64,000 bases of DNA. Source: Burkholderiales bacterium 70-64. GTDB lineage: Bacteria > Pseudomonadota > Gammaproteobacteria > Burkholderiales > Burkholderiaceae_E. Both the position numbers and the translations under genes were made by a program. The stretch lies in NCBI GenBank assembly GCA_001898645.1, contig MKUQ01000016.1:62001-126000 (forward strand). The letters run 5' to 3'. Position 1 is the first letter of the stretch, and each line of letters opens with the position of its first letter. This document shows, in pieces, positions 24,133 through 41,349 of the stretch. Under the pieces are notes generated by a model that worked only from the letters and a program-made list of their open reading frames with translations, ran no database searches and was not told where the DNA came from.

Positions 24133-24215
24133 CGCAAGACCTCCGTGACGCCACTTTAGGGACGGCGGCCCGCCGCGAACATCCTTCCGTAGAGCGGCCG
24201 CGCTGAGCCGGAAGA

Positions 24216-24241: not shown

Positions 24242-24269
24242 TCGAAAGGAGTACTACCAGGGGCCTGTC

Positions 24270-24330: not shown

Positions 24331-24984
24331 GGGCGCGCGTCCGGCCAGGTAGACGGCTGCCTGCACGCGCGAGCTCAGGTTGAGCTTGCGCAGGATGTGC
24401 TGGACGTGGATCTTCACCGTCGTCTCGGCGATGCCGAGCGTGCGTCCTATCGTCTTGTTGCTGTCGCCGCGCGCGATGCAGCCGAGGATCTCGCGCTCGC
24501 GCGGCGACAGCGCCTCGATCGGATCGCGCGCCGGGCCCGCCGCGGGCGCGTCTTCGATCGCGCGGAACGCCCTGACCAGCTTGCCGGTCATCTCGGGGCT
24601 CACCACCGACTCCCCCCGCACGGTGCGCCGGATCGCGTCGGCGAGCGCTTCGCCCTCGATGGTCTTGAGCACGTAGCCCTGGGCGCCGCCGCGCAGCGCG
24701 GCGGCCAGGTCCTCTTCGTCCTCGCTGACCGTCAGCATCAGCACGCGGGCGGCCGGGGCGGCTTCCTTCAGGCCGGCGAGCGCAGCCACGCCGGTCGCCC
24801 CGGGCAGGTGGTTGTCGAGCAGGATCAGGTCGGGCTGCAGCTCGCGCACGCGCCGCAGCGCCTCGCCGGCATCGGCTGCCTCGCCCACCACCTCGAAGCC
24901 CGGCTCGCCCGACAGCAGCGCGATCAGGCCGCGGCGAAACAGGGTGTGGTCGTCGACCACCACGAGACGGACCGGGCCGGTCAT
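24310..24984 (-). CDS. narL: Nitrate/nitrite response regulator
   Basis: A 224-residue response regulator. Receiver: Asp11-Asp12 acidic pocket and phospho-acceptor Asp57 (L-I-L-L-D-N-H-L-P-G). Output: a LuxR/GerE helix-turn-helix at about 155-215 (L-S-P-R-E-R-E-I-L-G-C-I-A-R-G-D-S-N-K-x-I-G-R-x-L). The partner kinase gene narX overlaps it by ATGA. Activated NarL should bind heptamers upstream of the narK1 operon. Unusually, narXL lies on the same strand as, and upstream of, narK1 here. Confidence 0.95.
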   Translation of the reverse strand: MTGPVRLVVVDDHTLFRRGLIALLSGEPGFEVVGEAADAGEALRRVRELQPDLILLDNHLPGATGVAALAGLKEAAPAARVLMLTVSEDEEDLAAALRGGAQGYVLKTIEGEALADAIRRTVRGESVVSPEMTGKLVRAFRAIEDAPAAGPARDPIEALSPREREILGCIARGDSNKTIGRTLGIAETTVKIHVQHILRKLNLSSRVQAAVYLAGRAPQESTDS

Positions 24985-26855
24985 GCGGCCCGCACCTGCG
25001 GCGCCTGCGGCGGCAGCACCAGGCTCACGCAGGTCCCCTCGCCCGGCATCGATTCCACGCGCACCGTCGCGCCGATGCGTCGCGCCCGCTCCTGCATGAT
25101 GTGCAGCCCCACCCGGGTGTCCTCGCGCGCCCGTTCGTCCACCTCGAAGCCGCGGCCGTCGTCCTGCACCTCGAAGCGCCAGGCCGGCGCCTGGTGCACT
25201 CGCAGCCATACCCGGGTCGCGTGGGCATGCTTGCGGACGTTCGACAGCGCCTCCTGGATCACGTGCAGCACCTGCACCTGCACGGCGGGATCGAGCGGCA
25301 GGCCGTGCCCCTCGATGCTGAGCTGTGCGCGCAGGCCGGTCTGGTGCTCGAACTTCGAAAGCGTGGTGCGCAGCGCCGGCTCGATGTCTTCGTCGTTGGT
25401 GCGGGTGCGGAAGTGCACCAGCAGCTCGCGCACGTCGCTGTAGCTCTCGCGCACGCCGGCATCGAGCTCGCCGAGGGTACGCTCGAGGCCGGCCGCATCG
25501 CCGCGGGCGACCGCGTCGCGCAGCAGCCGGACCTGGATCTTCAGGAAAGCCAGCGACTGCGCGATGGAATCGTGCAGCTCCTGGGCCAGCAGGCCGCGTT
25601 CCTGCGCCACCGCTGCCTCCACGTCGAGCGCCGCGGCGCGCATGCCTTCCATCGCGCTGGCGAGATGGCTGGCCAGCGCCTCGAGCAGCGAGCGGTCGTC
25701 CTCGGCCAGCACCGCCTCGCCGACGTAGAACAGGTCGATCTCGCCCAGCACGCGCTGGTGCAGCAGGACCGGCACGGAGATCAGCGTGCGGTAGCCGGCG
25801 CTCGCGCAGTGGTCGAAGCTCATCTCGGGATCGGCGCGGATCGGGATGACGCGCACGCCGGAAGCCGGCTGCAGGCGGCCGCACAGGCAGGTGCCGGCGT
25901 GCACGCAATGCTCCTTCTCGAGCATGGCCGCCGGCACGCAATCGCCGGCCAGCGCGAGAAAGCGCTGGTTGGTTTCGTCGGACCAGCGGATCAGGACCGC
26001 GTCGGCCCGGGCGATCGCCCGCACCTGGCGCGCGAAGCCGTGCGCCAGCTCGTCGAGCGAGCCCGCGGCACCCACCAGGGCGCTCGCCTGGTACAGCGCC
26101 GCCAGGCGCTGGCTCTCGCGCTCGAGGCCGGCAGTCTTCTCGTGCACCTTGTCCTCCAGGCCGCGGTACAGCGCCTGCAGGTTCTCGGCCATGCGGTTGA
26201 AGCCCGTGGCGAGCTGGCCGAATTCGTCGTTCGAGGTGACGGCCACGCGCGCATCGAACTCGCCCTGCTCGATGCGCGAAAGGCCGCGCTGCAGCCGCGC
26301 GACCGGTTCGACGACGAAGATGTAGCCCGCGTACAGCAGCGCCACCGCGCCGCCGATCGCCAGCGCCATCATCGCGAACTGGAAGGCATTGAGGATGGCG
26401 GTCCAGCGCGACAGCTGCCGCTCGATCGAGGCGACGAACACGTCGATCGATTCCACGAAGGCATCGACGCGCGCCACCGGGACGCGGCCGGCGCCGGCCT
26501 CCCAGGCGTCGCGCAGCAGCGCCCATTGGGTACGCACCGCCTCGAAATGCTCGCGCATCGACTCCGTCCAGGGCACGAACAGAGGCCGCCCCGGATCGCC
26601 GGTGGCCAGCACCTCGAGGCTGGAGTCGAAACGCCCGATGCGCCGCTGCAGGTCGCCGGGCGGCGCATCGGCCGCCTCGAGCGCCAGGCGATACGCCTGC
26701 ATGCGCATGCGCCCGGCCTCGTTGACGGCGGCCGCGCCGCCCTCGAGCTGCCAGGTCACCCACAAGGTCAGACCGATCGAGGCCAGCGCCAGCAGCAACA
26801 GCGAAAACCCGATGACGACCAGCTTGGCCGCCAGCTTCCACGGAGTAGCGCGCAT
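24981..26855 (-). CDS. narX: Nitrate/nitrite sensor histidine kinase
   Basis: A 624-residue membrane kinase. Membrane helices lie at about 11-33 and 157-182; the periplasmic region between them begins with the P-box, E-A-G-R-M-R-M-Q-A-Y-R-L (residues 46-57), which binds nitrate. HAMP follows at 183-235, then a central module with Cys317, Cys323 and Cys325 (H-C-V-H-A-G-T-C-L-C-G) typical of NarX. The phospho-acceptor His428 is in L-A-Q-E-L-H-D-S-I-A-Q-S-L, and the ATP-binding domain is at the end. It signals to NarL. Confidence 0.94.
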   Translation of the reverse strand: MRATPWKLAAKLVVIGFSLLLLALASIGLTLWVTWQLEGGAAAVNEAGRMRMQAYRLALEAADAPPGDLQRRIGRFDSSLEVLATGDPGRPLFVPWTESMREHFEAVRTQWALLRDAWEAGAGRVPVARVDAFVESIDVFVASIERQLSRWTAILNAFQFAMMALAIGGAVALLYAGYIFVVEPVARLQRGLSRIEQGEFDARVAVTSNDEFGQLATGFNRMAENLQALYRGLEDKVHEKTAGLERESQRLAALYQASALVGAAGSLDELAHGFARQVRAIARADAVLIRWSDETNQRFLALAGDCVPAAMLEKEHCVHAGTCLCGRLQPASGVRVIPIRADPEMSFDHCASAGYRTLISVPVLLHQRVLGEIDLFYVGEAVLAEDDRSLLEALASHLASAMEGMRAAALDVEAAVAQERGLLAQELHDSIAQSLAFLKIQVRLLRDAVARGDAAGLERTLGELDAGVRESYSDVRELLVHFRTRTNDEDIEPALRTTLSKFEHQTGLRAQLSIEGHGLPLDPAVQVQVLHVIQEALSNVRKHAHATRVWLRVHQAPAWRFEVQDDGRGFEVDERAREDTRVGLHIMQERARRIGATVRVESMPGEGTCVSLVLPPQAPQVRAA

Positions 26856-27009: not shown

Positions 27010-28197
27010 ATGAAGGCCGCCTTCAAGTGGGACGACCCGCTGCTGCTCGATGCGCAGCTCACCGAGGACGAGCGCATGGTGCGCGAGGCCGCGATGGCCT
27101 ATTGCCAGGACAAGCTCGCGCCGCGCGTCCTCGAGGCGTTCCGCACCGAGCGCACCGACCCGGCGATCTTCCGCGAGATGGGCGAGCTCGGCCTGCTCGG
27201 CCCGACCATTCCCGCCGAGTACGGCGGCCCGGGCCTGAACTACGTCTCCTACGGGCTGATCGCGCGCGAAGTGGAGCGCGTCGACTCCGGCTACCGCTCG
27301 ATGATGAGCGTGCAGAGCTCGCTGGTGATGGTGCCGATCTACGAATTCGGCACCGAGGCGCAGAAGCGCAAGTACCTGCCGAAGCTCGCCACCGGCGAAT
27401 CGATCGGCTGCTTCGGGCTCACCGAGCCGAACCACGGCTCCGACCCCAGCTCGATGGAGACGCGCGCCAAACGCGTGGACGGCGGCTACCAGCTCACCGG
27501 CGCCAAGATGTGGATCTCGAACTCGCCGTTCGCCGACGTGTTCATCGTCTGGGCCAAGTGCGTGGGCGGCGACCACAACGGCCGCATCAAGGGCTTCATC
27601 CTCGAGAAGGGCATGAAGGGACTGTCGGCGCCGGCCATCCACGGCAAGGTGGGGCTGCGCGCCTCGCTCACCGGCGAGATCGTGATGGACCAGGTGTTCG
27701 TGCCCGACGAGCAGCTGATGCCGGGCGTCGAGGGGCTGAAGGGTCCGTTCACCTGCCTGAACAGCGCGCGCTACGGCATCGCCTGGGGCGCGCTCGGCGC
27801 AGCCGAGGACTGCTGGCACCGCGCGCGCCAGTACGTGCTCGATCGCAAGCAGTTCGGCCGGCCGCTGGCGGCCAACCAGCTGATCCAGAAGAAGCTCGCC
27901 GACATGCAGACCGAGATCACGCTCGGGCTGCAGGGGTGCCTGCGCCTGGGCCGCATGAAGGACGAAGGCACGGCCGCGGTGGAGATCACCTCGATCATGA
28001 AGCGCAACTCGTGCGGCAAGTCGCTCGAGATCGCGCGCATGGCGCGCGACATGATGGGCGGCAACGGCATCTCCGACGAGTTCGGCGTGGCGCGCCACCT
28101 GGTCAACCTCGAGGTGGTCAACACCTACGAGGGCACGCACGACATCCACGCGCTGATCCTCGGGCGCGCGCAGACCGGCATCCAGGCGTTCTCCTGA
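27010..28197 (+). CDS. gcdH: Glutaryl-CoA dehydrogenase
   Basis: Oxidises and decarboxylates glutaryl-CoA to crotonyl-CoA, a late step of benzoyl-CoA, lysine and tryptophan breakdown. The 395-residue protein is an acyl-CoA dehydrogenase with [14 protein letters not shown] at the flavin site and the catalytic Glu374 in T-Y-E-G-T-H-D-I-H, the hallmark of this enzyme. Start and ribosome site (AGGAG) are good. It stands alone, divergent from narX, and is consistent with aromatic degradation in this organism. Confidence 0.95.
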
Positions 28198-28205
28198 GAT
28201 CGGTC

Positions 28206-28227
28206 CCCGGCTCCACTGGAAGCCGGG
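28206..28227. terminator. Hairpin after gcdH
   Basis: CCCGGCT (28206-28212) pairs with AGCCGGG (28221-28227) with an 8-base loop, 8 bases after the gcdH stop. No U tract follows, so termination would be weak or factor-dependent. Confidence 0.45.
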
Positions 28228-28339
28228 CAGCGCAACGGTGGTCCACCCTCGTCCGGCCCGTGCGGCCGGCGTCGGTGCCCCATCGTGCGCGCAAATCTGT
28301 CAGCATTCGGCCGTCGAACAACTCGGGACCAGATGCGAC

Positions 28340-29014
28340 ATGAACGATAGCACCCCTGCCAGGTCGGCCGAGCCGGGCCCGTCCGCCGTACAGCGCGTCG
28401 TCGACCTCGTGCTCTCGCGCATCCGCTCGGGCGAGTACGCGCCGGGGCAGATCATCGTGGCCCGGGACCTGATGACCGAGCTCGGCGTCAGCAAGGCGCC
28501 GGTGCGCGAGGGAATCCACGTGCTGGTCGGCGAAGGGGTCATGGAGCTGCTTCCGAACCGTTCGGCACGGATCAAGAGGCTCTCCGCAAAGGACACGGTC
28601 GACTTCACCGAGATCTGGGCCGTCATAAACGGCCTGAACATCCGCCTGGCAGCGGCCAAGCTGGACCGGGCCGAGGACCGCGACAGGGTACGCAAGGCGC
28701 TGGCGCGAATACAGGCGACCGGACGTACCCGGGTACCCTACGATTTCTTCATGGCCGTCGGCCAGCTCCACGCGACGCTGGCCGAGATTTCGCAGAACAG
28801 CTTCGCCCTCGCCTTCATCGGCCGCGTGCACCTCGTCCACTTCTATCGGCACATCGAGCGCGGGTTCCCCGGGGCCTACTGGGACGCCCACCTCCTCGCC
28901 TTCAAGCGCATCGGAGAGGCGCTGCTCGAGCAGGACGGCGACCGCGCCGAACGGATCTACCTCAAGCACATGCGGTGGGTAGCGGGCCTGATGCGCCAGG
29001 GCACGGCCACCTAG
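28340..29014 (+). CDS. GntR-family transcriptional regulator
   Basis: A 224-residue regulator. Residues about 15-80 form the winged helix (R-I-R-S-G-E-Y-A-P-G-Q-I-I, then L-G-V-S-K-A-P-V-R-E-G-I-H-V-L, G-V-M-E-L-L-P-N-R-S). The C-terminal half is an all-helical FCD-type effector domain, though a weakly conserved one. It is the likely controller of the catabolic block downstream: the same palindromic site (GTCGACCATT core) lies in both promoters of that block. The start at 28340 gives a normal N-terminus; the frame is open upstream without family similarity. The ligand is unknown. Confidence 0.88.
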   Translation: MNDSTPARSAEPGPSAVQRVVDLVLSRIRSGEYAPGQIIVARDLMTELGVSKAPVREGIHVLVGEGVMELLPNRSARIKRLSAKDTVDFTEIWAVINGLNIRLAAAKLDRAEDRDRVRKALARIQATGRTRVPYDFFMAVGQLHATLAEISQNSFALAFIGRVHLVHFYRHIERGFPGAYWDAHLLAFKRIGEALLEQDGDRAERIYLKHMRWVAGLMRQGTAT

Positions 29015-29016
29015 GG

Positions 29017-29043
29017 CCTGTTCACACTACGATCGACCCTGCC
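29017..29043. repeat. Short dispersed repeat, type 2
   Basis: GCCTGTTCA-CA-CTACGATCG followed by A-CCCTGC, right after the GntR gene. The same sequence minus the CA appears at 43680-43705. Both lie just behind stop codons. Confidence 0.55.
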
Positions 29044-29121
29044 CCTTCGGGAGGCGCCCTGCCGGCGCTGCCCGCCATGGCCGGCGGCAACGACGCTGCT
29101 TCTCCGGCGACGTGATTCGGC

Positions 29122-29164
29122 TTGACAAGAAGCTGGTCATGTCGGCAATAATAGTCGACCATTA
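29122..29164 (+). promoter_or_regulatory. Promoter and GntR-type operator of the ABC/racemase operon
   Basis: A perfect -35 hexamer TTGACA (29122-29127) is followed 19 bases later by AATAAT. Overlapping that -10 region, TAATAGTCGACCATTA (29149-29164) is palindromic except for one base pair and contains GTCGACCATT. An almost identical site lies at 32671-32686. The overlap with the -10 region implies repression by the adjacent GntR protein. Confidence 0.65.
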
Positions 29165-29173
29165 AGTCGTCCA

Positions 29174-29192
29174 ATTGTTCGACATGAACAAT
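29174..29192. promoter_or_regulatory. Second inverted repeat in the same leader
   Basis: ATTGTTC (29174-29180) and GAACAAT (29186-29192) are perfect inverted repeats with spacer GACAT, 10 bases after the first operator. It may be an auxiliary operator or a leader hairpin. It is not repeated at the second promoter. Confidence 0.45.
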
Positions 29193-29226
29193 GCAAGCCC
29201 GGGCGCGTACACAGAGGAGACCCGTG

Positions 29227-30165
29227 ATGAACTACCGCAAGTACCTGATCGCCGCGCTCGCGTTCCCGATCGCCGTCGCGCTGTCGCCGCTGGCCGGGGC
29301 ACAGGCCAGGGAGCCGGTCAAGCTGGGGGTCGGCGTCGACACGGCCTATGCCGCGATGTATGTGGCGAAACAAGGCAAGCTGTTCGAGAAGCACGGCGTC
29401 AATGTGGACGTCGTGCAATTCACGCAGGGCGGCGATGCACTCGATGCGATGGTCGCCGGCCAGATGGCGCTCGGCGCCTCGGCCGAGCCGACGACGCTCG
29501 TCAGGGCAGCGCGCGCCGACATCGCGGTGGTCGGCATCTTTTATCAGTCGGGGAAGTACATCAAGCTGGTGGTCAAGCCCGGCATCACCGAGCCCAGGCA
29601 GCTCAGGAAGCTCGGCATCGTTCCGGGCACGGTCAGCGAGTACTCGACCGAGCTCATGCTGGCCAAGTACGGCATCGATCCGAAATCCGTGGAGATTATC
29701 AAGGTGGGTCCGCCGGAGGCGCCTGCGCTGCTTGCGCGTGGCGACCTCGACGGCTACTTCATGTGGGAGCCGTGGCCGACCAATGGAGTCAAGCAGGGCG
29801 GCAAGATCCTGCTGACCAGCGGCGACGTCGGCTACGTTGACAACATGTGGCTGTCGACCCGTCGCACCTGGCTCGCGACCCACCAGGCAGAGGCGAAAGC
29901 GATCCTCGCGGCGCTTGCCGAGGCCTGCGAAATCGTTCGCAGCGACCCGGCCAAGGCGGCAGCTGCCGTGCAGGCCGAAGCGAAGATTCCGGCCGAGGTG
30001 GTACTGAACGTGTTGAAGGACATCCAGTGCGTGGTACGCGACTTCACGCCTGCCGACATGGAGTCCTACAACAGGATTGCCGATTTCCTGGCGAGCCGGA
30101 AGATCACGCCGGTCAGGGTCGACCTCGACAAGGTGCTGCAGCGGGGATTCTATGTCGCGAAATAG
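29227..30165 (+). CDS. ABC importer substrate-binding protein, NMT1/TauA type
   Basis: A 312-residue periplasmic binding protein. Residues 1-27 are a signal peptide ending A-Q-A. The mature part begins V-K-L-G-V-G-V-D-T-A-Y-A-A-M-Y-V-A-K-Q-G and has the two-lobe NMT1/TauA/SsuA arrangement (D-A-L-D-A-M-V-A-G-Q-M-A-L-G, then G-Y-F-M-W-E-P-W). Such proteins bind sulfonates, thiamin precursors, pyrimidines, phthalate or other small organic molecules, so the substrate is open. Start chosen by the GAGGAG site at 29215-29220 and the signal peptide. First gene of the operon. Confidence 0.87.
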   Translation: MNYRKYLIAALAFPIAVALSPLAGAQAREPVKLGVGVDTAYAAMYVAKQGKLFEKHGVNVDVVQFTQGGDALDAMVAGQMALGASAEPTTLVRAARADIAVVGIFYQSGKYIKLVVKPGITEPRQLRKLGIVPGTVSEYSTELMLAKYGIDPKSVEIIKVGPPEAPALLARGDLDGYFMWEPWPTNGVKQGGKILLTSGDVGYVDNMWLSTRRTWLATHQAEAKAILAALAEACEIVRSDPAKAAAAVQAEAKIPAEVVLNVLKDIQCVVRDFTPADMESYNRIADFLASRKITPVRVDLDKVLQRGFYVAK

Positions 30166-30177
30166 CCGGGTCGCCGC

Positions 30178-31014
30178 GTGAACGCACTTCCGACGCTCCA
30201 GGACCGGCCCGTGGCCGCATGCACCGGGGCCACGATCCGGCTCGATCGCGTCTCGATCGCGTTCGGCGAGCACCGGATCGTGTCGGACATCAACCTCGAG
30301 GTCGCGGCGGGAGAGTTCGTATGCCTGCTGGGCCCGAGCGGCTGCGGAAAATCGACGCTGCTCAATCTGGTCGCCGGCTTCCTGCCGGCCACGTCGGGAC
30401 AGGTCCGTGTCGGCGGGAAGCCGGTCCAGGGTCCCGGCATGGATCGCGGCGTGGTGTTCCAGAGCACCGAGGCGCTGTTTCCGTGGCTCACCGTCCAGGA
30501 GAACGTGGAGTACGGGCCGCGCATGCGCGGCGTGGGCCGCGCGGAGCGGGCCGAGGCCGCGCGGCACTATCTGGAGCTCGTCGGCCTGAGCCACGCCGCC
30601 CTGCGCCTGCCCGGGGAGCTCTCGGGAGGCATGCGGCAGCGGGCCCAGATCGCGCGCGTTCTCGTCAACGAGCCTTCCGTGGTGCTGATGGACGAGCCGT
30701 TCGGCGCCCTCGACGCCCAGACGCGCGAGGTGATGCAGGCCGAAGTCGATCGCATCTGGCGCGCGACCCGTCCGACCATCCTTTTCATCACCCACGACAT
30801 CTGGGAAGCGATCCTGCTCGGCGACAGGATACTCACGATGACCGCGGGCCCCGCCGCGACGTTCAAGACCGTCGCATCGGTCGGCATCCCCCATCCGCGG
30901 GAGCTCACCGCCCCCGAAGCCGTCGAGCTCTATCGCGAACTGCGTGAAGACATCGCCGCCGAGGTTAGGCGCACGCTGCTGGCGCAGGGGCTGGCCAAGG
31001 GAGTCGCCGCATGA
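30178..31014 (+). CDS. ABC importer ATP-binding protein, SsuB/TauB type
   Basis: A 278-residue ATPase energising the transporter. Walker A is G-P-S-G-C-G-K-S-T at 52-60, the signature is L-S-G-G-M-R-Q-R, Walker B is V-V-L-M-D-E-P, and the switch is the His in F-I-T-H-D. It begins with GTG, 12 bases after the binding protein's stop. The NitT/TauT-family gene order (binding protein, ATPase, permease) is standard. Confidence 0.92.
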   Translation: MNALPTLQDRPVAACTGATIRLDRVSIAFGEHRIVSDINLEVAAGEFVCLLGPSGCGKSTLLNLVAGFLPATSGQVRVGGKPVQGPGMDRGVVFQSTEALFPWLTVQENVEYGPRMRGVGRAERAEAARHYLELVGLSHAALRLPGELSGGMRQRAQIARVLVNEPSVVLMDEPFGALDAQTREVMQAEVDRIWRATRPTILFITHDIWEAILLGDRILTMTAGPAATFKTVASVGIPHPRELTAPEAVELYRELREDIAAEVRRTLLAQGLAKGVAA

Positions 31015-31841
31015 CGACGGTCGATTCCAGCCCCGTGGCCTTTCGCGCCGCTGCCGAAGCGGCCGGCCCGGCACGGCCTTTCTGGCACACGAGGCTGGGA
31101 AGGCTCCTTACCGGCCTCTTTTCCGTGGCGCTCGGCGTCGTCGTCTGGGAGATACTGAGCTGGCGGATCCAGCCGCTGTTCCTGCCGTCGCCGCGGCTGA
31201 CGCTGCAGGCCGTCATCGAGCTATGGCAAGACGGGACGCTGATGCTGTCGGTCGGCGCCTCGCTGGCCCGGATCATGGTGGGCTGGTCGCTCGGGCTCGT
31301 CATCGGCATCCCGCTGGGCATCGTGATGGGCTATTTCCCCCTCGTGCGCCGGCTGCTCGACCCCTATGTCGAATTCTTCCGCTTCATTCCGCCGATCGCA
31401 TTCGTCACGCTGGCGGTGATATGGCTCGGACCGGGGGAGGCGTCCAAGGTCGCCCTGATCCTCTACACCACGATCTTCATCGTGATGATCAATACGATCG
31501 CCGGCGTGCTTTCGGTGAGCGAGCTGCGCCTGAGGGCGGCAGCCACGCTCGGCGCCGGCCGCCTCCAGACCCTGCTCACGGTCATCTTTCCATCGACCGT
31601 GCCCTACATGGTCACGGGCGCGCGGCTCGCGATGGGAAACTCCTTCCTGACCATCGTCTCCGCCGAGATCGTCGCAGCCCAGGTGGGCCTCGGATCGATG
31701 ATCTGGACTTCGCGCAACTACGGCAAGACCGAATGGGTCTTCGTCGGCATCATCGCCCTGGGCCTGCTCGGGTATGCCTGCGACCGCGTCGTGCGTTTCG
31801 TCGTGCAACGGCTGCTGAAACGCTACGCCGTTGCAGTATGA
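31011..31841 (+). CDS. ABC importer permease, SsuC/TauC type
   Basis: A 276-residue inner-membrane protein with about six helices. The cytoplasmic coupling loop is A-A-A-T-L-G-A-G-R-L-Q-T-L-L-T-V-I-F-P (EAA motif variant), followed by the conserved P-S-T-V-P-Y segment. It overlaps the ATPase gene by ATGA. A 57-base spacer precedes the racemase-like gene, and no terminator is seen, so the operon continues. Confidence 0.92.
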   Translation: MTTVDSSPVAFRAAAEAAGPARPFWHTRLGRLLTGLFSVALGVVVWEILSWRIQPLFLPSPRLTLQAVIELWQDGTLMLSVGASLARIMVGWSLGLVIGIPLGIVMGYFPLVRRLLDPYVEFFRFIPPIAFVTLAVIWLGPGEASKVALILYTTIFIVMINTIAGVLSVSELRLRAAATLGAGRLQTLLTVIFPSTVPYMVTGARLAMGNSFLTIVSAEIVAAQVGLGSMIWTSRNYGKTEWVFVGIIALGLLGYACDRVVRFVVQRLLKRYAVAV

Positions 31842-31898
31842 AGTCGTGCCGGACGGCGGCGGCGCCTCGCGAAGTCGGGGTCATGAAAGGGAACCGCA

Positions 31899-32621
31899 TT
31901 GGCTGAAGGGTTCGGCTGGAAGGCGCGGATCGGGCAGCTCTATCCTTCGGGCGGGCTGAGCGACCATGAAGTCCAGCGGATGGCGCCCGAAGGCGTGCAG
32001 TTCGTCACGACGCGCATGCCTTTTCGCAAGGCCGGCCTCGAAGACGACGCATCGCTGGCGCGCGACGTGGAGTTCCACGCGTCGCTGCTGGCCGATGCCC
32101 GCGTCGAGCTGATCGCCTTCAACTGCACGGCGGCCAGCCTGATCACCGGGCCGCAGGTGATCAATCGCCGCATCGAGGCCGCGACAGGCATCCGTTCGGT
32201 CACGACGATCGAAGCGGTCCTGGAAGCCCTGGAGGCCGCGCGCGTGCGGCGCTTCGCGTTGTTGACGCCCTATCTGCCCGAGGTCGTCGCGCACGAGGCC
32301 GCGTACTTCCGCGAGCGCGGATTCGAGGTGACGGACAGCGCCGGCGAGCCCTGCGCGGATCCCGTCGCGCAGGGCTCGATCCCGGCGCAGCGCTGGCTCG
32401 AGCTGTCCCGCGCCCTGCGCAAGGACGACTGCGACGGCCTGCTGGTGAGCTGCGCGGGCATCCAGCTCGCGACGGTGCTCGGCGAGATCGAGCGCGAGTT
32501 CGATCGCCCGGTCATCGCCAGCAACCAGGCGCTGCTCTGGACATGCCTGCGCCGCCTGGCGTTGCCCGATCGGCCGGCCGGCTTCGGCGCCCTCCTGGCC
32601 GGCGCCTTCGATCCGCGCTGA
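31899..32621 (+). CDS. Asp/Glu racemase superfamily enzyme (maleate isomerase / hydantoin racemase / arylmalonate decarboxylase-like)
   Basis: A 240-residue enzyme of the cofactor-free two-cysteine racemase fold. Cys76 (A-F-N-C-T-A-A-S) and Cys186 (V-S-C-A-G-I-Q) are the two catalytic positions; both are Cys, as in racemases and maleate isomerase, while arylmalonate decarboxylases keep only the second. The start is TTG at 31899, with AAAGGGA before it. An 8-codon ATG frame (31882-31905) overlaps that start and could reduce translation. The position between an importer and a HyuA/HyuB pair suggests it prepares the configuration or double bond of the imported compound. Confidence 0.83.
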   Translation: MAEGFGWKARIGQLYPSGGLSDHEVQRMAPEGVQFVTTRMPFRKAGLEDDASLARDVEFHASLLADARVELIAFNCTAASLITGPQVINRRIEAATGIRSVTTIEAVLEALEAARVRRFALLTPYLPEVVAHEAAYFRERGFEVTDSAGEPCADPVAQGSIPAQRWLELSRALRKDDCDGLLVSCAGIQLATVLGEIEREFDRPVIASNQALLWTCLRRLALPDRPAGFGALLAGAFDPR

Positions 32622-32632
32622 CCGTCGCGGTC

Positions 32633-32686
32633 TTGACAAATCAGGCCATGCCCAGAAGAATGTGTCTCTCAAATGGTCGACCATTT
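32633..32686 (+). promoter_or_regulatory. Second promoter of the catabolic block with a perfect 16-bp operator
   Basis: TTGACA (32633-32638), a 17-base spacer and AAGAAT (32656-32661) form a good sigma-70 promoter. Ten bases further, AAATGGTCGACCATTT (32671-32686) is a perfect 16-bp palindrome near the predicted start of transcription. Together with the following bases it repeats the site at 29149-29168 (GTCGACCATT-A/T-AGT, 13 of 14 identical). It is the most probable operator of the GntR protein encoded at 28340. Confidence 0.75.
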
Positions 32687-32702
32687 AGTAGGCTAAATTG
32701 AA

Positions 32703-34802
32703 ATGACTGAGCGGACATTGAGGCTGGCGGTAGATGTCGGCGGCACCTTCACCGACGTCACGCTGTTCGATCCGGACACGGGTGGAGTGGTTTCGGCAAA
32801 AGCGCCCACGACACCGGGCGACCGGGCGGTCGGCGTGCTCGACGGCATCGCGGCGGCGCTCGAGGCGGCGGGCGCCCGGGCCGACCGCGTGGCCGAGGTG
32901 GTGCACGGCTCCACCACCGGCACCAACGCCCTGATCGAGCGCACCGGCGCGCGGGTCGGCCTGCTCACCACCGAAGGGTTTCGCGACGTGCTCGAGATCG
33001 GCCGCATCATGCGGCCGGACGCCGGGCTGTACGACTTCTCGGTCGACCTGCCGCTGCCGCTGGTGCCGCGGCACCTGCGGCTCGAAGCGCGCGAACGGCT
33101 CGACGCGCGGGGCCGCGTCCTGGCCCCGCTCGACGAAGCATCGGTGGCCGCGGCAGCCGACGCCTTCGCGCGCGAGGGCGTCGAGGCGGTGGCCGTCTGC
33201 TTCCTGTTCTCCTTCCTCGACCCGACGCACGAGGAAGCGGCCGAGCGGATCCTCGCGCGCCGCCTGCCCGGCGTGCCCATCAGCCTGTCCTCGCGCATCT
33301 GCCCCGAGATCCGCGAGTACGAGCGCAGCTCGACCACGGTGATGAACGCCTACCTCACGCCGGTCATGTCGGCCTATCTCGATTCGCTGCAGCGGCGCCT
33401 GCAGGAGGCGATGGGCGCGGTCCGGCTGTCGGTGATCCAGGCCAACGGCGGCTCGACGTCGGTCGCGTCGGCCCGCCGCCGCGCCGTCACGACGGTGAAC
33501 TCGGGGCCGGCAGGCGGCGTCGTGGCGGCGGCGTTCTACGGCCGGCGCAACGGCCGCGACCGCCTCGTCTCGGTCGACATGGGCGGCACCTCGTTCGACA
33601 TCGGCCTGGTCGAGAACGGCACCTGCGCGGTCACCACGGAAGGCGGCTTCCAGGGACTCCCGGTGCGCATCCCGATCATCGATCTGCACATCATCGGCGC
33701 CGGCGGCGGGTCGATCGCGTTGCGCGATCCCGGCGGCGCGCTGCAGGTCGGCCCGCACTCGGCCGGCGCCGAACCCGGGCCGGCCTGCTACGGGCGCGGC
33801 GGAACCCGGCCCACGGTCACGGATGCCAACCTGGTGCTCGGCCGCCTGAACGCCGACTACTTCAACGGCGGGCGCATGCGCCTGGACGCGGCGGCGGCAC
33901 GGCGCGCAGTGGGCGCGCTCGCGGATGAGATGGGCATGAGCGTCGAGGAGACCGCGCTGGGCATCGTGCGCGTGGTCAACGCGAACATGGTCAAGGGCAT
34001 CGCCGCGGTCACGATCCTGCGCGGCATCGACGTACGCGACTTCTCGCTCCTCTCGTTCGGCGGCGCGGGCGGCGTCCACGCGGTCGAGCTCGCGCAGGCG
34101 CTGTCGATGCGCGAGACCGTCGTGCCGCCGCTGCCGGGCACCTTCTCGGCCGTCGGCCTGCTCGCCACCGACGTGCGCCACGACTACGTGACGGCACTCG
34201 GCGGCGTGCGCACGACCGACGCGGATCCGGACGAGCTGGAAGCGGCGTACCGCGAGATGGAGCGGCAGGCCGGGGCGGAGCTGGCTGCCGACGGCTTCAC
34301 GGGCGCGTCGGCGAGCTTCGTGCGCACGGCCGATATGAAGGTGGCCGGGCAGACCTACGAGCTGTCCGTGCCGCTGCCGCAGGCGGGCCCGGTGACCACG
34401 GCCGGCATCGAGGCGCTCGCCGACGCCTTCGCGCGCCTGTACCGCGAACGCTACGCCTACTTCTTCGCCGGCGAGCCGATCGAGATCGTCAACCTGCGGG
34501 TCGCGGGGCTCGGCCACAACCGGCCGATCGAGCTGCCGACCGCGCCCGCCGCGGCGGCCGATCCGTCGCCGGCGCGCAAGGGGACGCGGCCGGTGTACTT
34601 CGAATCGGCCGGCTTCCTCGACACCGACGTCTACGACCGGCTCCTCCTCCATCCGGGCATGGTGGTCGAGGGACCGGCGCTGGTCGAGGAGCAGACCTCC
34701 TCGACGCTGGTTCCGCCGGGCTCGCGTGCCGAAGTCCTGGCCGACCTCGGCCTGGCGATTCCGGTCGGCGGCCAACCCGTGCCTGAAGGAGCACACACAT
34801 GA
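32703..34802 (+). CDS. Hydantoinase/oxoprolinase family protein, HyuA-type subunit
   Basis: A 699-residue member of the HyuA (ATP-binding) family that includes N-methylhydantoinase, 5-oxoprolinase and the acetone/acetophenone carboxylase beta-like subunits. Landmarks: L-A-V-D-V-G-G-T-F-T-D-V at the N-terminus (actin-like phosphate loop), H-G-S-T-T-G-T-N-A-L-I-E-R and S-V-D-M-G-G-T-S-F-D-I. These enzymes use ATP to open cyclic amides or to carboxylate ketones. The ribosome site is weak (AGG, 11 bases). It is the first gene of the second transcription unit and overlaps the next gene by ATGA. Confidence 0.9.
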   Translation: MTERTLRLAVDVGGTFTDVTLFDPDTGGVVSAKAPTTPGDRAVGVLDGIAAALEAAGARADRVAEVVHGSTTGTNALIERTGARVGLLTTEGFRDVLEIGRIMRPDAGLYDFSVDLPLPLVPRHLRLEARERLDARGRVLAPLDEASVAAAADAFAREGVEAVAVCFLFSFLDPTHEEAAERILARRLPGVPISLSSRICPEIREYERSSTTVMNAYLTPVMSAYLDSLQRRLQEAMGAVRLSVIQANGGSTSVASARRRAVTTVNSGPAGGVVAAAFYGRRNGRDRLVSVDMGGTSFDIGLVENGTCAVTTEGGFQGLPVRIPIIDLHIIGAGGGSIALRDPGGALQVGPHSAGAEPGPACYGRGGTRPTVTDANLVLGRLNADYFNGGRMRLDAAAARRAVGALADEMGMSVEETALGIVRVVNANMVKGIAAVTILRGIDVRDFSLLSFGGAGGVHAVELAQALSMRETVVPPLPGTFSAVGLLATDVRHDYVTALGGVRTTDADPDELEAAYREMERQAGAELAADGFTGASASFVRTADMKVAGQTYELSVPLPQAGPVTTAGIEALADAFARLYRERYAYFFAGEPIEIVNLRVAGLGHNRPIELPTAPAAAADPSPARKGTRPVYFESAGFLDTDVYDRLLLHPGMVVEGPALVEEQTSSTLVPPGSRAEVLADLGLAIPVGGQPVPEGAHT

Positions 34803-36475
34803 CCGACGTCATCACGATGCAGGTGATCCGCTACGGCCTGGAACAGGTGGCGGACGAAATGGGCAACACGCTGGTGCGCACCGGGCGCTCGACCATCATC
34901 ACCGAGATCAAGGACATCTCGTGCGTCGTCACCGACGCAGCCGGGCAGACCGTCGCGCAGGCCCATCACAACCCCAGCCTGCTGGCCGGCTTCGAGATCA
35001 CGATGAAGGAGCTGGTGCGGGCGTTCCCGCCCGAGGCGCTCTCGCCGGGCGACGTGATCATCACCAACGACCCGTATCGCGGCGGCCAGCACATCATGGA
35101 CCTGTACGCGATCGCGCCGGCGTTCCACGACGGCCGCCTGATCGGCTTCGTCGGCAACATCACCCACCACTCCGATCTCGGCGGCGTGGCCGCGGGCGGC
35201 GTCGCGGGCGGCATCCGCGAGATCTACCTCGAGGGCCTGCGCCTGCCGATGATCAAGCTCTACAAGGGCGGCCGCGAGGATGCCGAGATCATCGGCATCA
35301 TCGCCAACCAGATCCGCGTGCCCGACAAGACGCTCGGCGACATCAGGGCGCAGGTCGCCTCGCTGATGGTGGGAACCGAGCGGCTCGACCGGATGTTCCG
35401 CCGCTACGGCGAAACGACGATGCGCCAGGCCTGCGCCGACCTGCTCGACTACTCCGAGCGCCGCATGCGGCTCGGGCTGCAGCAGCTGCCGGCCGGCACC
35501 TACGAGGCCGAGGACTGGATCGACGACGACGGCGTCTCCGAGCGGCCGATCCGCATCCACGTGAAGCTGACGATCGGCGGCGGGCGGGTCGTCGTGGATC
35601 TCACTGACAGCGACCCGCAGGCCGAGGGGAACACCAACTCCACGGTGGCGAACACGCATGCGGCCGCCTACTATGTGATGATCGCGGTGGTCGATCCGGG
35701 GATCCCGCCGAACTCGGGCTGCTACCGGCCGATCGAGGTCGTCACCCGCCCCGGCAGCATCGTGCATCCGCTGCCGCCGGGCGCCGTGGCCGCGCGCACC
35801 AACGCATCGCAGAAGATCGTCGAGGCGATGCTGCGTGCCCTGTCGGTCGCCGTGCCCGACCGCGTGACCGCCGGCTCGCACGGGCAGATCAGCACCAGCG
35901 GCTTCGGCGGGCGCGATCCATCGAGCGGCGCCCCCTTCGTCTACACCGACATCCAGGGCGGCGGCTCGGGCGCACGCCCCTACCGCGACGGACGCGACGG
36001 ACAGGACAGCCACCTGCCCCGCTTCATGAACACACCGGTCGAGGTCCTCGAGCGCCAGTTCCCGATGCGCATCGAACGCTACGAGTTCATTCGCGATTCG
36101 GGCGGCCCCGGCCTGTACCGGGGCGGGCTCGCCCTGCGACGCGACGTGCGCGTGCTCGCGGACCGCGTCAGCTTCGCCCGCTACGGCGATCGCCACCGCT
36201 TCGCACCGCAAGGCCTGTTCGGCGGCCTGCCCGGAAGCTGCGGCGCGATCGTGCTCAATCCGGGCACGCCCGCGGAGCGCAGGCTCGCATCCAAAGGGCT
36301 GGATACGCTGGGCGCCGGAGACCTCATCAGCATGCGCCTGCCGGGAGCCGGCGGCTACGGCGACCCGCGCAAGCGGCCGCGCGAGGCCGTCGAGGCGGAT
36401 CTGCGCGACGACAAGATCAGCCGCGAGTCGGCACTGCGCGATTACGGCTGGACGGATGCGGGAGGCGCGCGATGA
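34799..36475 (+). CDS. Hydantoinase/oxoprolinase family protein, HyuB-type subunit
   Basis: A 558-residue partner of the HyuA-type protein. Conserved segments: [27 protein letters not shown] and G-S-G-A-R. The short length (no large extra domain) fits ordinary HyuB. The pair must work together; the reaction could be ATP-dependent hydrolysis of a lactam, imide or hydantoin, or carboxylation of a ketone. No carboxylase gamma-type small subunit is present, which makes an acetone carboxylase unlikely. Overlaps both neighbours by 4 bases. Confidence 0.9.
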
Positions 36476-37683
36476 CCCTGCGCCGCCGCGTCGTCCTGTC
36501 GCTCGAGCAGGCGCTGTCGCTGCCGCACGCGACGCTGCGCTTCGTGCACAAGGGCTGGCGCGTGATCCGCATCGAGCCCGTTCCCACCGGCCAGGGATTG
36601 CCCGGCGATCCGAACCGCTACATCGGCAAGCGCATCGTCGGCGAAGACCGGCGCAGCTACTTCATCGCCCAGAACGTGGGCAAGGAGTCGATCGCGCTCG
36701 ACCTGAAGAACCCCGAGGGCCAGCGGCTGCTGCGGCGGATCATCGAAGCCCTCGACGTCGACGTCTTCTGCTGCAACACCCTGCCCAAGCGCCACCGCCA
36801 GCTCGGCATCGACTACCGGACGCTGTCGGCGGCCAAGAGCGACCTCGTGTGGGCCGGGATCTCCGCGATGGGGCCCGATTACCCGGACGTCCCCGGCTAC
36901 GATCCCGCGATGCAGGCGATGGCCGGCTTCATGGAGCTGACCGGAGCGCGCGACGGGCCGCCGATGCTGTCCGGCGTGCCGCTGATCGACCTCAAGGCCG
37001 GCGACGACGTCTACGGGGAGGTGATGGCCGCGCTGCTCGAGCGCAGCGAGACCGGGCGCGGGCGCGAGATCCACGTCTCGATGCTGCAGTCGGCCGCCTC
37101 CTGGCTGGTCACGACGATGCCGCTGCTGAACTTCGATTGCGATCCGTCGGAGATCGGGCGCGTCGGCAACGAGCACCGCAAGTTCATTCCGACCAATGCC
37201 TACCCCACGATCGACGGGTTCGTCTTCGTGGCCATCGGCAACGACCTGCAATGGAAGCGCCTGACGCAGATCCCGAAGTTCGCCGGCATCGCCAACGAAG
37301 TCCGTTGGAGCAACGAGGGCCGGCATCGCGAACGCGCCGCGATCCACGAAGACATCGCGGCGGTCACGCGCAGGCACACCAGCGCCGAGCTGATGGAAGA
37401 CTTCAGGCGCGCGACGATCCCGCACGCGCCGATCCAGACGATCGCACAGGTGGCCGCCATGCCGGCGGTCCGCACCAAGATGAGCAGCAGCACGATGCCG
37501 GACGGCCGGGTCATCCATCTGCAGCCGCCCGCCATCGATCTCGATGGCCCTGCCCACTTCGCCTTCCCGCCGCGCTATGGCGAGCACACGCAAGCGGTGC
37601 TGCGCGAGGCCGGGCTCGGCGACGGCGAGTGCGCCGCACTGGCGGCGCAGGGGATCGTATCGCTCGGCGCGCCGGATCGCTAA
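36472..37683 (+). CDS. Family III CoA-transferase
   Basis: A 403-residue CaiB/FRC-like CoA-transferase, which moves CoA from a donor thioester to a carboxylic acid via an enzyme-bound anhydride. Asp144 in [13 protein letters not shown] is the likely catalytic residue. The usual N-terminal [14 protein letters not shown] start and [11 protein letters not shown] segment are present. It overlaps the HyuB gene by ATGA, so the product of HyuAB is probably the acid that is activated. Its stop overlaps the convergent MaoC gene by 4 bases. Confidence 0.9.
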
Positions 37684-38135
37684 GGGTAGCGCCGCGACAC
37701 CGCCTCGGCCACGCACACCGGGCGGTCGCCGCCCTTGCGCTCGACAGTGACCTCAATGGTCATCTGCACCCCGCCCCGGTCGAGGTCCTCGAGCGACAGC
37801 AGGCGCACGCGCGCGCGCAGCTCGCTGTCCGCCGGCACCGGCGCGGGGAAGCGCACCCGGTTGAGCCCGTAGTTCACGCTCATGCGCACCCCACGCAGCT
37901 CGAGCGCGCTCTGCATGAAGAGCGGCAGCAGCGACAGCGTGAGGTAGCCGTGCGCGATGGTGGCGCCGAACGGGCCCTTGGCGGCGCGCTCGGGGTCGAC
38001 GTGGATCCACTGGTGATCGCCGGTGGCCTCGGCGAACTGGTCGATGCGCGACTGGGTCACCTTCACCCAGTCGCTCACGGCGATCTCCTCGCCCACGCAC
38101 GGCTTCAATGCAGCCAGGTTCTCGAATACCCGCAT
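37680..38135 (-). CDS. MaoC-like hydratase
   Basis: A 151-residue hot-dog-fold enoyl-CoA hydratase-like protein. The catalytic dyad is in [13 protein letters not shown], with the conserved [10 protein letters not shown] after it and F-P-A-P-V-P near the end. Such proteins add water to enoyl-CoA thioesters. It follows the benzoate-CoA ligase gene by 11 bases and so belongs to that operon rather than to the convergent CoA-transferase. Confidence 0.88.
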
Positions 38136-38146: not shown

Positions 38147-39784
38147 TCAGCCGCGCAGCTTGTAGCGCTGGATCTTGCCGGTGGCCGTCTTGGGCAGCTC
38201 CTCGATGAACTCGATCCAGCGCGGGTACTTGAACGGCGCGAGCCGGTCCTTCACGTGCGCCCTGATCGCCTCGGCCAACTGCGGCGAGGCCTGCGCCGGA
38301 TCCTTCAGCACCACGTAGGCCTTGGGCTTGATCAGGTGGTCGGCGTCGTCGACGCCCACCACCGCCGCCTCCAGCACCGCGGGGTGCGACGCCACCGCCG
38401 ACTCGACCTCGAACGGCGAGACGTACTGGCCGCTCACCTTAAGCATGTCGTCGGAGCGGCCGGCGTAGGTGTAGTAGCCGTCGGCGTCGCGCACGTACTT
38501 GTCGCCGCTGCGCGTCCACTCGCCCTGGAAGGTGCCACGCGTCTTCTCGCGCTGGTTCCAGTACATGGCGGCCGCCGACGGCCCGCGGATGTAGAGATCG
38601 CCGACCTCGCCCGTGCCGACCTCGTGCCCGTCCTCGCCGCGCAGCGAGAGGGAATAGCCGGGCACCGGCCTGCCGGTCGTGCCGTAGCGCACCCGGCCGG
38701 CCTGGTTGGAGAGGAAGATGTGCAGCATCTCGGTCGAGCCGATGCCGTCCAGGATCTCCACGCCGGTGCGCTCGGTGAACGCCGCGCCGACCCGCTCGGG
38801 CAGGGCCTCGCCGGCGGAAGTGGCCACGCGCAGGCCGAGCTGCTCGCGCGCCGGGAACGCTTTGCTGGCAAGCATCGAGGCATACAGCGTCGGCACGCCG
38901 TAGTGGATCGTCGGGCGCGCGTGCAGCTGCACCAGGGCCTGCGGCGCCTCGCCGGTGAGGCGCTGGAACACCGCTTCCGGCGTCGGGCGCTCCGCCATCA
39001 GCAGCGCGGTGGCGCCGACCGACAGCGGGAACGTGAGGCCGTTGCCCAGCCCGTAGGCGAAGAACAGCTTGGCCGCGCTGAACACGATGTCGGACTCGCG
39101 GATGCCGAGCACCGGCAGCGCATACAGCTCGGCGGTCTCGACCAGGCTGGAATGGATGTGCACGGTGCCTTTCGGCGCGCCGGTCGAGCCCGAGGAATAC
39201 AGCCAGAAGCAGGCTTCGTCGGCGATCGTGTCGGCCGGCTCGAACGTGTCGCTCCCCGAGGCGAGCAGGGCGTCGAAGTCGGTGATCCCCGGCCCTTGCG
39301 GAGCCGCGCCGCCCGCCTCGAGCGGAGCGCGCGACACGACGGTATGGCGCAGCGTCGGGATGCGCCCGGCCAGCTCCTCGAACACGGGCAGCAGCGCCTG
39401 CGACACGAACAGCACCTGCGCGCGCGAATCGCGCAGCATGTACTCGTAGTCCTTGGATCGAAGCAGGGTGTTGACGGCGATCGGCACCACGCCGGCCTTG
39501 ATCGCGCCGAGGAAGGCCACCGGCCAGTCGATGGTGTCGAGCATGCACACCAGCACGCGGTCCTCCGGCCGCAGGCCCAGCCCCGCCAGCGACGAGGCGA
39601 ACCGGTTCACGCGCCGGGCCAGCTCGGCGTAGGTGCAGCTGCCGCGGTCGTCGATGAAGGCGAGCCGATCGCCGCGCCCCGCCTGCAGGTTGCGCTCGAT
39701 CAGGTCGTGCGCCGCGTTGTAGCTGCGCGGGAAGGTGACCCGCGGTGGGACCACGTTGCGGTCGACGCTCGACAGTTCGGCCAC
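38147..39784 (-). CDS. bclA: Benzoate-CoA ligase
   Basis: A 545-residue adenylate-forming enzyme that converts benzoate, ATP and CoA to benzoyl-CoA, the entry to aerobic (box) or anaerobic benzoate breakdown. The AMP-binding motif Y-S-S-G-S-T-G-A-P-K-G-T-V-H is at 196-209; the C-terminal lysine is in T-A-T-G-K-I-Q. The whole N-terminus (V-P-P-R-V-T-F-P-R-S-Y-N-A-A-H-D-L-I-E-R-N) is characteristic of benzoate-CoA ligases. It begins at GTG (39784) with AGGAG 7 bases before; an ATG just upstream is out of frame. Confidence 0.92.
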   Translation of the reverse strand: MAELSSVDRNVVPPRVTFPRSYNAAHDLIERNLQAGRGDRLAFIDDRGSCTYAELARRVNRFASSLAGLGLRPEDRVLVCMLDTIDWPVAFLGAIKAGVVPIAVNTLLRSKDYEYMLRDSRAQVLFVSQALLPVFEELAGRIPTLRHTVVSRAPLEAGGAAPQGPGITDFDALLASGSDTFEPADTIADEACFWLYSSGSTGAPKGTVHIHSSLVETAELYALPVLGIRESDIVFSAAKLFFAYGLGNGLTFPLSVGATALLMAERPTPEAVFQRLTGEAPQALVQLHARPTIHYGVPTLYASMLASKAFPAREQLGLRVATSAGEALPERVGAAFTERTGVEILDGIGSTEMLHIFLSNQAGRVRYGTTGRPVPGYSLSLRGEDGHEVGTGEVGDLYIRGPSAAAMYWNQREKTRGTFQGEWTRSGDKYVRDADGYYTYAGRSDDMLKVSGQYVSPFEVESAVASHPAVLEAAVVGVDDADHLIKPKAYVVLKDPAQASPQLAEAIRAHVKDRLAPFKYPRWIEFIEELPKTATGKIQRYKLRG

Positions 39785-40395: not shown

Positions 40396-41307
40396 TCAGG
40401 CCGCGTCGTCGCGAGCCGACGAGCCGGCCAGCGGGCTGATCTGTGCGATGACCTCGAGCAGGCGCTTCAGGCTCTCGGCCTCCCCGATGCCGGTCGTGTC
40501 GACGGCGGCGTCGGCCATGGCGTAGAGGCGGTCGCGCTGCTTCAGGATAGTACGCAATTCCGCCATCGCGTGATCGCGTCCGCGGATCGGACGCAGGTCG
40601 CCCTGGGCGACCACGCGATCCATGTGCTCCTCGGGCGAGGCCTTGAGCCAGATCGTCAGGCAGCGCTCGCGCAGCAGATCGTAGGTGAGCGGCTCCAGCA
40701 CCAGCGATCCGCCGGTGGCGATGACGCAGCGCCGGTGCGTGCGGGTCAGGCGGTCGAGCACGCGGCGCTCGGCCTCGCGGTAGGTGTCCTGCCCGTACAT
40801 GGCGAAGACGCTCTCCAGGCTGGCCCCGAGCTCGGCCTCGATCTGCTGGTCGAGCTCGAAGAACGGCACCTTCAGCCGCGCCGCCAGGCGCGTCCCGAGC
40901 GTCGATTTGCCGGCGCCGCGCAGGCCCACCAGCGCGATGCGCCGGGCGCGCTCGCGGCTCATCTGGCCGAAGCGCTGCTGCAGCGCCGCGACCGCCTGGT
41001 GGCGCTGCCCCGGCTCGAGGCTGCGCAGCACCTCGAGCGCGGCGCGGATCTCCGCATCCATCACCTGATCGCCGAGTAGCTGCTCCAGCGAGCACTGCAG
41101 CGCCTCGGCGACGCGGCGGATGAGCAGGATCGAGATGTTGCCGTCGCCCGACTCGAGCTGCGCCAGGTAGCGCTCGGAGAGGCCGGACGCCTCGGCCAGC
41201 CGCCGGCGCGTCAGCCCGGCCTCCTCGCGGCGCTCGCGCACGCGCCGTCCGAGCGCGGCGAGAAAGGCCGGATCGTCCTGGGATTTGCCCAACGGCGGCG
41301 AAGCCAT
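40396..41307 (-). CDS. boxR: Benzoyl-CoA-responsive regulator (BoxR/BzdR family, HTH plus shikimate-kinase-like domain)
   Basis: A 303-residue fusion. Residues 15-75 form an XRE-type helix-turn-helix (L-T-R-R-R-L-A-E-A-S-G-L-S-E-R-Y-L-A-Q-L-E-S-G-D-G-N-I-S). Residues 120-295 resemble shikimate kinase, with Walker A G-L-R-G-A-G-K-S-T (128-136) and D-L-R-P-I-R-G-R. This is exactly the BoxR/BzdR architecture, a repressor that lets go when benzoyl-CoA binds. It is divergent from the alpha/beta hydrolase, with only 42 bases between starts; TGCA copies lie at 41307 and 41337. Confidence 0.9.
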   Translation of the reverse strand: MASPPLGKSQDDPAFLAALGRRVRERREEAGLTRRRLAEASGLSERYLAQLESGDGNISILLIRRVAEALQCSLEQLLGDQVMDAEIRAALEVLRSLEPGQRHQAVAALQQRFGQMSRERARRIALVGLRGAGKSTLGTRLAARLKVPFFELDQQIEAELGASLESVFAMYGQDTYREAERRVLDRLTRTHRRCVIATGGSLVLEPLTYDLLRERCLTIWLKASPEEHMDRVVAQGDLRPIRGRDHAMAELRTILKQRDRLYAMADAAVDTTGIGEAESLKRLLEVIAQISPLAGSSARDDAA

Positions 41308-41349
41308 GCAAGATAAGCCAGTCAATGGTGAATACCTGCAATATAACTC

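Follow-up and report, generated by a model that had tools for sequence, protein, structure and literature searches.

A GntR-linked HyuAB gene block in a Burkholderiales bacterium as a candidate pathway for acidic N-heterocycles

We analyzed a 64,000-nt stretch of DNA from Burkholderiales bacterium 70-64 (contig MKUQ01000016.1, positions 62,001 to 126,000; hereafter the window, whose numbering is used for positions below, located within contig C16 of this genome, G000). It carries a block of eight genes encoding a GntR-type regulator, a three-gene importer, a racemase-fold enzyme, the HyuA and HyuB subunits of a predicted ATP-dependent cyclic amidase, and a coenzyme A (CoA) transferase. Judged by its sequence, the block is real, rare, and coherently regulated. 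Our preferred reading, which we regard as an even call, is that it constitutes a small regulon for an acidic N-heterocycle that contains a lactam or imide bond, covering uptake, epimerisation, ATP-dependent opening, and CoA activation. Gene content, order, conservation, the shared palindrome, catalytic motifs, and CoA-transferase kinship were computed directly; from these we infer every reaction, its direction, the substrate class, and the link between regulator and site.

The open reading frame (ORF) list and Pfam matches bear out an earlier note on this DNA, which placed the eight genes on one strand (+) in the order given here. The first encodes a GntR/FCD-family regulator, the proposed repressor of the block (28340..29014; GntR 43.7 bits, FCD 42.4 bits). 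The importer comprises an NMT1/SsuA-type substrate-binding protein (29227..30165; NMT1_2 89.6 bits), whose ORF opens at 29191 with the likely start at 29227, an ATG after GAGGAG, together with an ATP-binding cassette (ABC) transporter ATPase (30178..31014; ABC_tran) and permease (31011..31841; BPD_transp_1). These are followed by a two-Cys racemase/isomerase of the maleate isomerase / arylmalonate decarboxylase fold (Amdase / Asp-Glu-racemase; 31899..32621), whose start codon, TTG, aligns with the ATG at which a relative's gene starts. The last three genes encode HyuA, the ATP-binding alpha subunit of the predicted amidase (32703..34802; three Hydantoinase Pfam domains), HyuB, the metal-binding beta subunit (34799..36475; Hydantoinase_B 569.9 bits), and a family III CoA-transferase that resembles the iaa-cluster (IaaL-like) type (36472..37683; CoA_transf_3 226.5 bits). 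As previously described, ATGA overlaps occur inside the units, measuring 4 bp at ATPase/permease, HyuA/HyuB, and HyuB/CoA-transferase; gaps of 57 bp and 81 bp lie upstream of the racemase gene and hyuA.

The gene order was sought in a set of 101 genomes, with 17 of the same genus besides G000, and the core recurs in three same-genus genomes at 71-94% identity. These relatives are G003, G009, and G012, with loci L027 (PRO11), L028 (PRO4), and L033 (G012); they are the 3 of the 17 that hold a racemase orthologue (77-93%). All three keep the order GntR, importer, racemase, HyuA, HyuB, CoA-transferase. Identities are 71-79% for GntR, which stands at the same place, 82-93% for HyuA, 88-94% for HyuB, and 84-91% for the CoA-transferase. 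Recurrence of the core order in three further genomes makes the block more than a chance association.

Two transcription units had been proposed earlier. We retain two regulated units, with gntR standing apart from both: importer plus racemase and HyuA-HyuB-CoA-transferase look like units that each carry an operator-like palindrome and a promoter-like TTGACA sequence of their own. Before hyuA, a consensus scan of 28150-37900 returned its sole sigma-70-like site, TTGACA-N17-AAGAAT (32633..32661, +), with 0.6 expected from shuffles. The scan passed over the promoter-like TTGACA-N19-AATAAT before the importer (29122..29152, +), found by direct reading, because of its 19-nt spacer. The palindromes are ATAGTCGACCAT before the importer (29151..29162) and ATGGTCGACCAT, within AAATGGTCGACCATTT, before hyuA (32673..32684). 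In all four loci the palindrome ATRGTCGACYAT precedes both importer and hyuA; the sites in L027, L028, and L033 lie ahead of dctP and hyuA, and the string TTGACA...AATAATAGTCGACCATT also precedes dctP in the three relatives.

This palindrome is largely confined to the block. The window contains two exact ATRGTCGACYAT sites, with 0.19 expected when one mismatch is allowed, and 3 of 100 shuffled windows reached two. Exact sites number 3, 3, 2, and 3 in the whole genomes G000, G003, G009, and G012 (0 for a reversed control pattern). Ten of these 11 fall in the block, and the eleventh, in G000, lies inside an ORF. The relatives have a further palindrome on the side of gntR where a pyrK gene lies, exact in L027 and L033 and with one mismatch, right where the pyrK ORF begins, in L028. 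No ATRGTCGACYAT site was found upstream of gntR in the window. A different string, AATCTGTCAGCAT (28293-28306 in the window), is conserved ahead of gntR in PRO11 and G012 as well as in the window, and may be a promoter or control site of gntR itself.

Since the palindrome is shared between units and 10 of the 11 exact sites are in the block, the units look like one regulon. The natural reading of ATRGTCGACYAT is a putative repressor site that overlaps the start site of each unit, with GntR as the candidate repressor. Conserved order and shared palindrome uphold the view of one jointly regulated catabolic block in which uptake and a racemase-fold enzyme are combined with an ATP-dependent HyuAB pair and with CoA activation; the two objections foreseen in the earlier note, an order kept in no relative and different signals for the two units, are thereby countered. 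The units may instead be separate neighbours, with importer and racemase serving one substrate and HyuAB with the CoA-transferase another. Each unit does have its own promoter, and an importer and racemase occur in Pinisolibacter without HyuAB beside them. We nevertheless consider this unlikely, since all four loci have the same palindrome ahead of both units, it is nearly absent from the rest of those genomes, and the order is kept in all four despite a swap of importer.

HyuA and HyuB are predicted to form an ATP-dependent cyclic amidase on the basis of motifs, metal tetrad, and two-subunit make-up. HyuA contains the motifs DVGGTFTD, DMGGTSFD, and GAEPGP (phosphate-1, phosphate-2, and adenosine); such ATP motifs were defined in caprolactamase, where they and the metal site are essential or important (PMC8453981). 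In HyuB, D39, H98, D101, and H123 correspond to the Asp-His-Asp-His metal tetrad of CapB, in all four copies of the block. With HyuA and HyuB followed by the CoA-transferase, the pair agrees in gene count and order with the ATP-dependent hydantoinase/oxoprolinase (Hyd alpha-beta) type, for which PMC5214803 gives a two-gene A-B rule. No gamma-subunit gene follows HyuB; the next gene is that of the CoA-transferase.

The earlier note had allowed both lactam or imide opening and ketone carboxylation. In the latter case, HyuAB would carboxylate a ketone with bicarbonate and the transferase would activate the keto acid, as in acetophenone degradation. Such enzymes belong to the same superfamily, and a benzoate-CoA-ligase-family gene lies in the flank. 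Against this, the block is without a gamma or extra subunit gene, while apc clusters have four or five genes and acx three, according to PMC5214803. In addition, E-values favour N-methylhydantoinase (HyuA 6e-147, HyuB 9e-89) over acetophenone carboxylase Apc (1e-96, 1e-26) and acetone carboxylase (6e-79, 4e-11); those for caprolactamase are 8e-138 and 2e-64. ATP-dependent opening is favoured, and we judge carboxylation very improbable.

The predicted amidase shares its two-subunit ATP-dependent type, ATP motifs, and metal tetrad with caprolactamase CapAB of Pseudomonas jessenii, but differs in its pocket. Eight of 14 aligned caprolactam-pocket positions go from hydrophobic, Pro, or Cys to polar residues (E36, N58, S60, S337, S367, Q402, S404, H405), and one change runs in reverse (Y136 to V135). 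The only difference among the four block copies at these positions is S/C at 367. Glu at the position of E36 is not distinctive, as it occurs in all of eight rows but caprolactamase. The NCBIfam equivalog scores for CapA and CapB (581 and 271 bits) fall below the cut-offs of 1000.

The CoA-transferase provides a further clue to the substrate. Homologues (61-66%) occur at 13 further places in the genome set, at least nine of which lie 7-9 kb from a HyuB homologue on their contig. This second locus was read in G069 (L101, G069:C81:25001-45000) and G013 (L097/L098, G013:C3). It holds genes for a GntR/FCD regulator, thiolase, HyuA, HyuB, acyl-CoA dehydrogenase, B12-type mutase, 2Fe-2S and molybdopterin subunits, and the CoA-transferase, with a ligase-like ORF recognised by reading only. 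Such a make-up is to be expected of the anaerobic indoleacetate (iaa) pathway. By HyuB/CoA-transferase spacing, at least nine related genomes have such an iaa-like cluster under its own GntR/FCD gene. The products IaaB, IaaF, IaaGH, IaaL, and IaaM are named in PMC8360864.

Identity between the block transferase and those of four iaa-like loci is 62-66%, and three of the latter are 66-68% identical to the fourth; the block protein is therefore nearly as close to the iaa-like transferases as they are to one another. We classify it as putatively IaaL-type by its likeness to the iaa-cluster transferases of relatives. IaaL transfers CoA within phenylsuccinyl-CoA, or between this thioester and succinate (PMC8360864). 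Taken with the kinship, this activity makes a 2-substituted succinate the best guess for the activated acid. The CoA activation proposed earlier is retained, and the kinship with the transferase of an indoleacetate-type cluster, missed at that time, is added to it.

The transferase type nevertheless appears borrowed, and the pathway not that of iaa, because HyuA falls in a clade apart and G000 has no close mutase. In an 18-row tree, block HyuA forms its own clade (100/100), and iaa HyuA and CapA sit in another five-row set (100/99). The best match to the iaa-type B12 mutase in G000 reaches 43%, against 77% in G003 and G013; the mutase is also present in G012 (71-82%, in two pieces). The block resembles the iaa pathway of Aromatoleum in combining HyuAB-type gamma-lactam opening, a family III CoA-transferase, and uptake in one cluster. 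It differs in having a racemase-fold gene and its own palindrome, in the clade of its HyuA, and in the absence of B12 mutase, Mo hydroxylase, and thiolase. Elsewhere in G000, an iaa-type HyuAB pair lies at 2960-6744 of locus L102 (G000:C49), 55 and 57% identical to the G069 pair; the rest of the iaa genes were not found in the 20 kb read.

This kinship raises the question of an auxin catabolite as substrate. HyuAB would then open the gamma-lactam of free 2-oxindole-3-acetate to (2-aminophenyl)succinate, the racemase would act at the chiral C3, and the IaaL-like transferase would add CoA. The iaa type of the transferase is in its favour, as are the close iaa-type mutases in G003 and G012, two of the three block-bearing relatives, and the description of iaa HyuAB as 2-oxoindoleacetyl-CoA gamma-lactamases in PMC5214803. 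The position of block HyuA outside the set with iaa HyuA and CapA speaks against it, as does the lack of a close mutase in G000, and the PyrD/PyrK proteins of the relatives would be left without a role; we rate it improbable. Plain hyu membership is disfavoured, as is plain iaa membership. The block shares HyuA, HyuB, and a racemase-fold enzyme with uptake with hydantoin utilisation (hyu) clusters, which hold HyuA, HyuB, the carbamoylase HyuC, and the racemase HyuE.

The description of the racemase-fold enzyme as a two-Cys protein proved sound: C76 and C185, matching both catalytic Cys of maleate cis-trans isomerase, are invariant in 10 aligned homologues. It is 26% identical to that isomerase and stands beside HyuAB, not in a nicotinate cluster. 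The Asn of the N-terminal SSN motif, which has a role in maleate cis-trans isomerase, is replaced by Gly (SGG). Outside the same-genus genomes the racemase is rare: apart from the genome's own copy, nothing above 31-36% identity turned up in samples of the order and the phylum, and a scan of genome contigs found copies in Pinisolibacter aquiterrae (67%) and Streptomyces radicis (56%). The neighbours encode a ring hydroxylase, an HsaA-like flavoprotein, and a phenol-hydroxylase family protein in the former, and asparaginase-family, Rieske homotrimeric hydroxylase, and ferredoxin reductase proteins in the latter, where an M20 match was below its cut-off. These neighbours fit an N-containing ring compound, without naming one. 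A Cupriavidus copy adjoins LysR and CsiD genes, which adds nothing to the N-ring reading.

In PRO11, PRO4, and G012, PyrD-, PyrK-, and EthD-like genes are divergent from gntR, a unit under the same palindrome that the earlier view of the block had missed. PyrD was found in 4 of 61 genomes at E<=1e-60, namely the three relatives and G071 (47%); PyrD (57%) and a piece of PyrK (57%) also lie near the Pinisolibacter racemase. The relatives' PyrD passes the cut-offs for dihydroorotate dehydrogenase 1B (NF005574, 323.4 vs 269; TIGR01037, 278.8 vs 270) and keeps the SCPN Cys and the Lys. The Asn of MLNAIGLQN, an orotate-site residue, is Cys in the three relatives and Phe in Pinisolibacter, and the Asn-Thr pair is Asn-Ala. 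We take this PyrD to be a ring reductase (or dehydrogenase) of the same kin that acts on another substrate. In L067 (G071:C5:185001-205000), a PyrK-PyrD pair (51 and 48%) adjoins a dihydroorotase-like gene, with UbiD-like and Mo-hydroxylase genes by reading; this is perhaps another catabolic use of such a reductase. The EthD-like tandem ferredoxin-like-barrel protein, which has no Pfam match (L027 278-982, -; L029 9216-9983, +; L050-L053), recurs beside ring-oxidising genes in several genomes.

Two more specific routes make use of this unit. For a pyrimidine acid, PyrD/PyrK would reduce orotate or an analogue, HyuAB would serve as an ATP-dependent dihydroorotase, and the racemase would act on ureidosuccinate, itself a 2-substituted succinate. 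The dihydroorotate dehydrogenase cut-offs passed by PyrD agree with this, and PRO4, alone among the loci read, has a uracil phosphoribosyltransferase (upp) gene near the block, between the CoA ligase and MaoC genes (L028 2491-3141, +). We think it rather improbable given the altered orotate-site residues, a CoA-transferase that would be superfluous, and the missing PyrD/PyrK unit in the window genome. For a substituted maleimide or succinimide, such as hematinic acid from tetrapyrrole breakdown, PyrD/PyrK would reduce the double bond of the imide, the racemase would epimerise the acidic alpha carbon, HyuAB would open the succinimide, and the transferase would activate the substituted succinate. 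The gene functions, PyrD/PyrK included, the polar HyuB pocket, and the substituted-succinate kinship of the transferase accord with this route. It is equally improbable in our estimation, as this candidate substrate is without direct support and G000 is without the PyrD/PyrK step at E<=1e-60.

Uptake, also part of the original proposal, is supported, but the importer is not a fixed part of the block. The window has an NMT1-type ABC importer, PRO11 and PRO4 a tripartite ATP-independent periplasmic (TRAP) transporter, and G012 a different TRAP transporter (DctP 32% and DctQ 29% to those of PRO11). The same promoter-palindrome string precedes these three unrelated importers. The ABC importer resembles the one near the Pinisolibacter racemase (binding protein 48%, ATPase 67%, permease 68%). 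TRAP uptake suits a carboxylate substrate.

In the pathway we prefer, that of the acidic N-heterocycle, a carboxylated substrate would be imported by the ABC system in the window and by TRAP systems in the relatives. The two-Cys enzyme would move a proton at an acidic carbon, making both stereoisomers (or the E/Z form) usable. HyuA would phosphorylate the amide carbonyl with ATP, and the HyuB metal site would hydrolyse the activated ring; the open-chain product would be a 2-substituted succinate or a dicarboxylate like it. The transferase, of IaaL type, would take CoA from succinyl-CoA, after which acyl-CoA enzymes would continue. GntR would repress both promoters through ATRGTCGACYAT at the start sites. 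In the three relatives, the PyrD/PyrK-type flavoprotein pair and the EthD-like protein would take part in this route too, with reduction of a double bond in the ring as their probable step.

Several observations weigh against this pathway. Neither an EthD-like match nor a close PyrD homologue (E<=1e-60 for PyrD) was found in G000, so that step would be dispensable or encoded elsewhere. The Pinisolibacter and Streptomyces racemases have no HyuAB pair beside them, and the Cupriavidus copy has no HyuA in its whole record. The pocket comparison derives from 31-38% alignments, in which columns 385-409 shift between two aligners, and the kinship of the CoA-transferase leaves the acyl acceptor unfixed. 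The block itself is without further beta-oxidation genes, and the ends of the G012 locus, as far as it was read, lack the flanking acyl-CoA dehydrogenase, MaoC, and CoA-ligase genes.

These flanks are common to the window and PRO11, with acyl-CoA dehydrogenase on one side and MaoC and CoA-ligase genes on the other. In the window, a MaoC-like gene (37680-38135, -) and the benzoate-CoA-ligase-family gene (38147-39784, -) converge on the CoA-transferase end. Beyond them lies a regulator with helix-turn-helix and shikimate-kinase folds (40420-41340, -), presumably of the BoxR/BzdR kind. This MaoC/CoA-ligase/regulator flank is kept in PRO11 and rearranged in PRO4. Further away, 15990-26855 (-) holds a respiratory nitrate reductase, two NarK-like transporters, and a NarX/NarL-like pair (translations read by eye); the host is probably a denitrifier judging from these genes.

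The chemistry proposed here is known by family; the combination of genes, the operator-defined regulon, and the importer swap are the new aspects. As the earlier note had surmised of the combination, no description of any of the three was found in open-licence literature. A broader claim is put forward tentatively, with more doubt than confidence: a single GntR regulon that unites a PyrD-type ring reductase with a maleate-isomerase-type racemase, a cyclic amidase driven by ATP, and a CoA-transferase of IaaL type may form a new route from an acidic N-heterocycle to a 2-substituted succinyl-CoA, with importers exchanged under an unchanged promoter-operator. HyuAB pairs are abundant, with a HyuB match at E<=1e-40 in at least 64 of the 101 related genomes, and are mostly without an assigned substrate. 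For finding that of this block, leverage would come from the tight regulon with its operator, a transferase pointing to substituted succinates, and the importer swaps, which narrow the substrate to a compound carried by both an ABC and a TRAP system. The recognisable operator would also provide a direct handle for finding the inducer.

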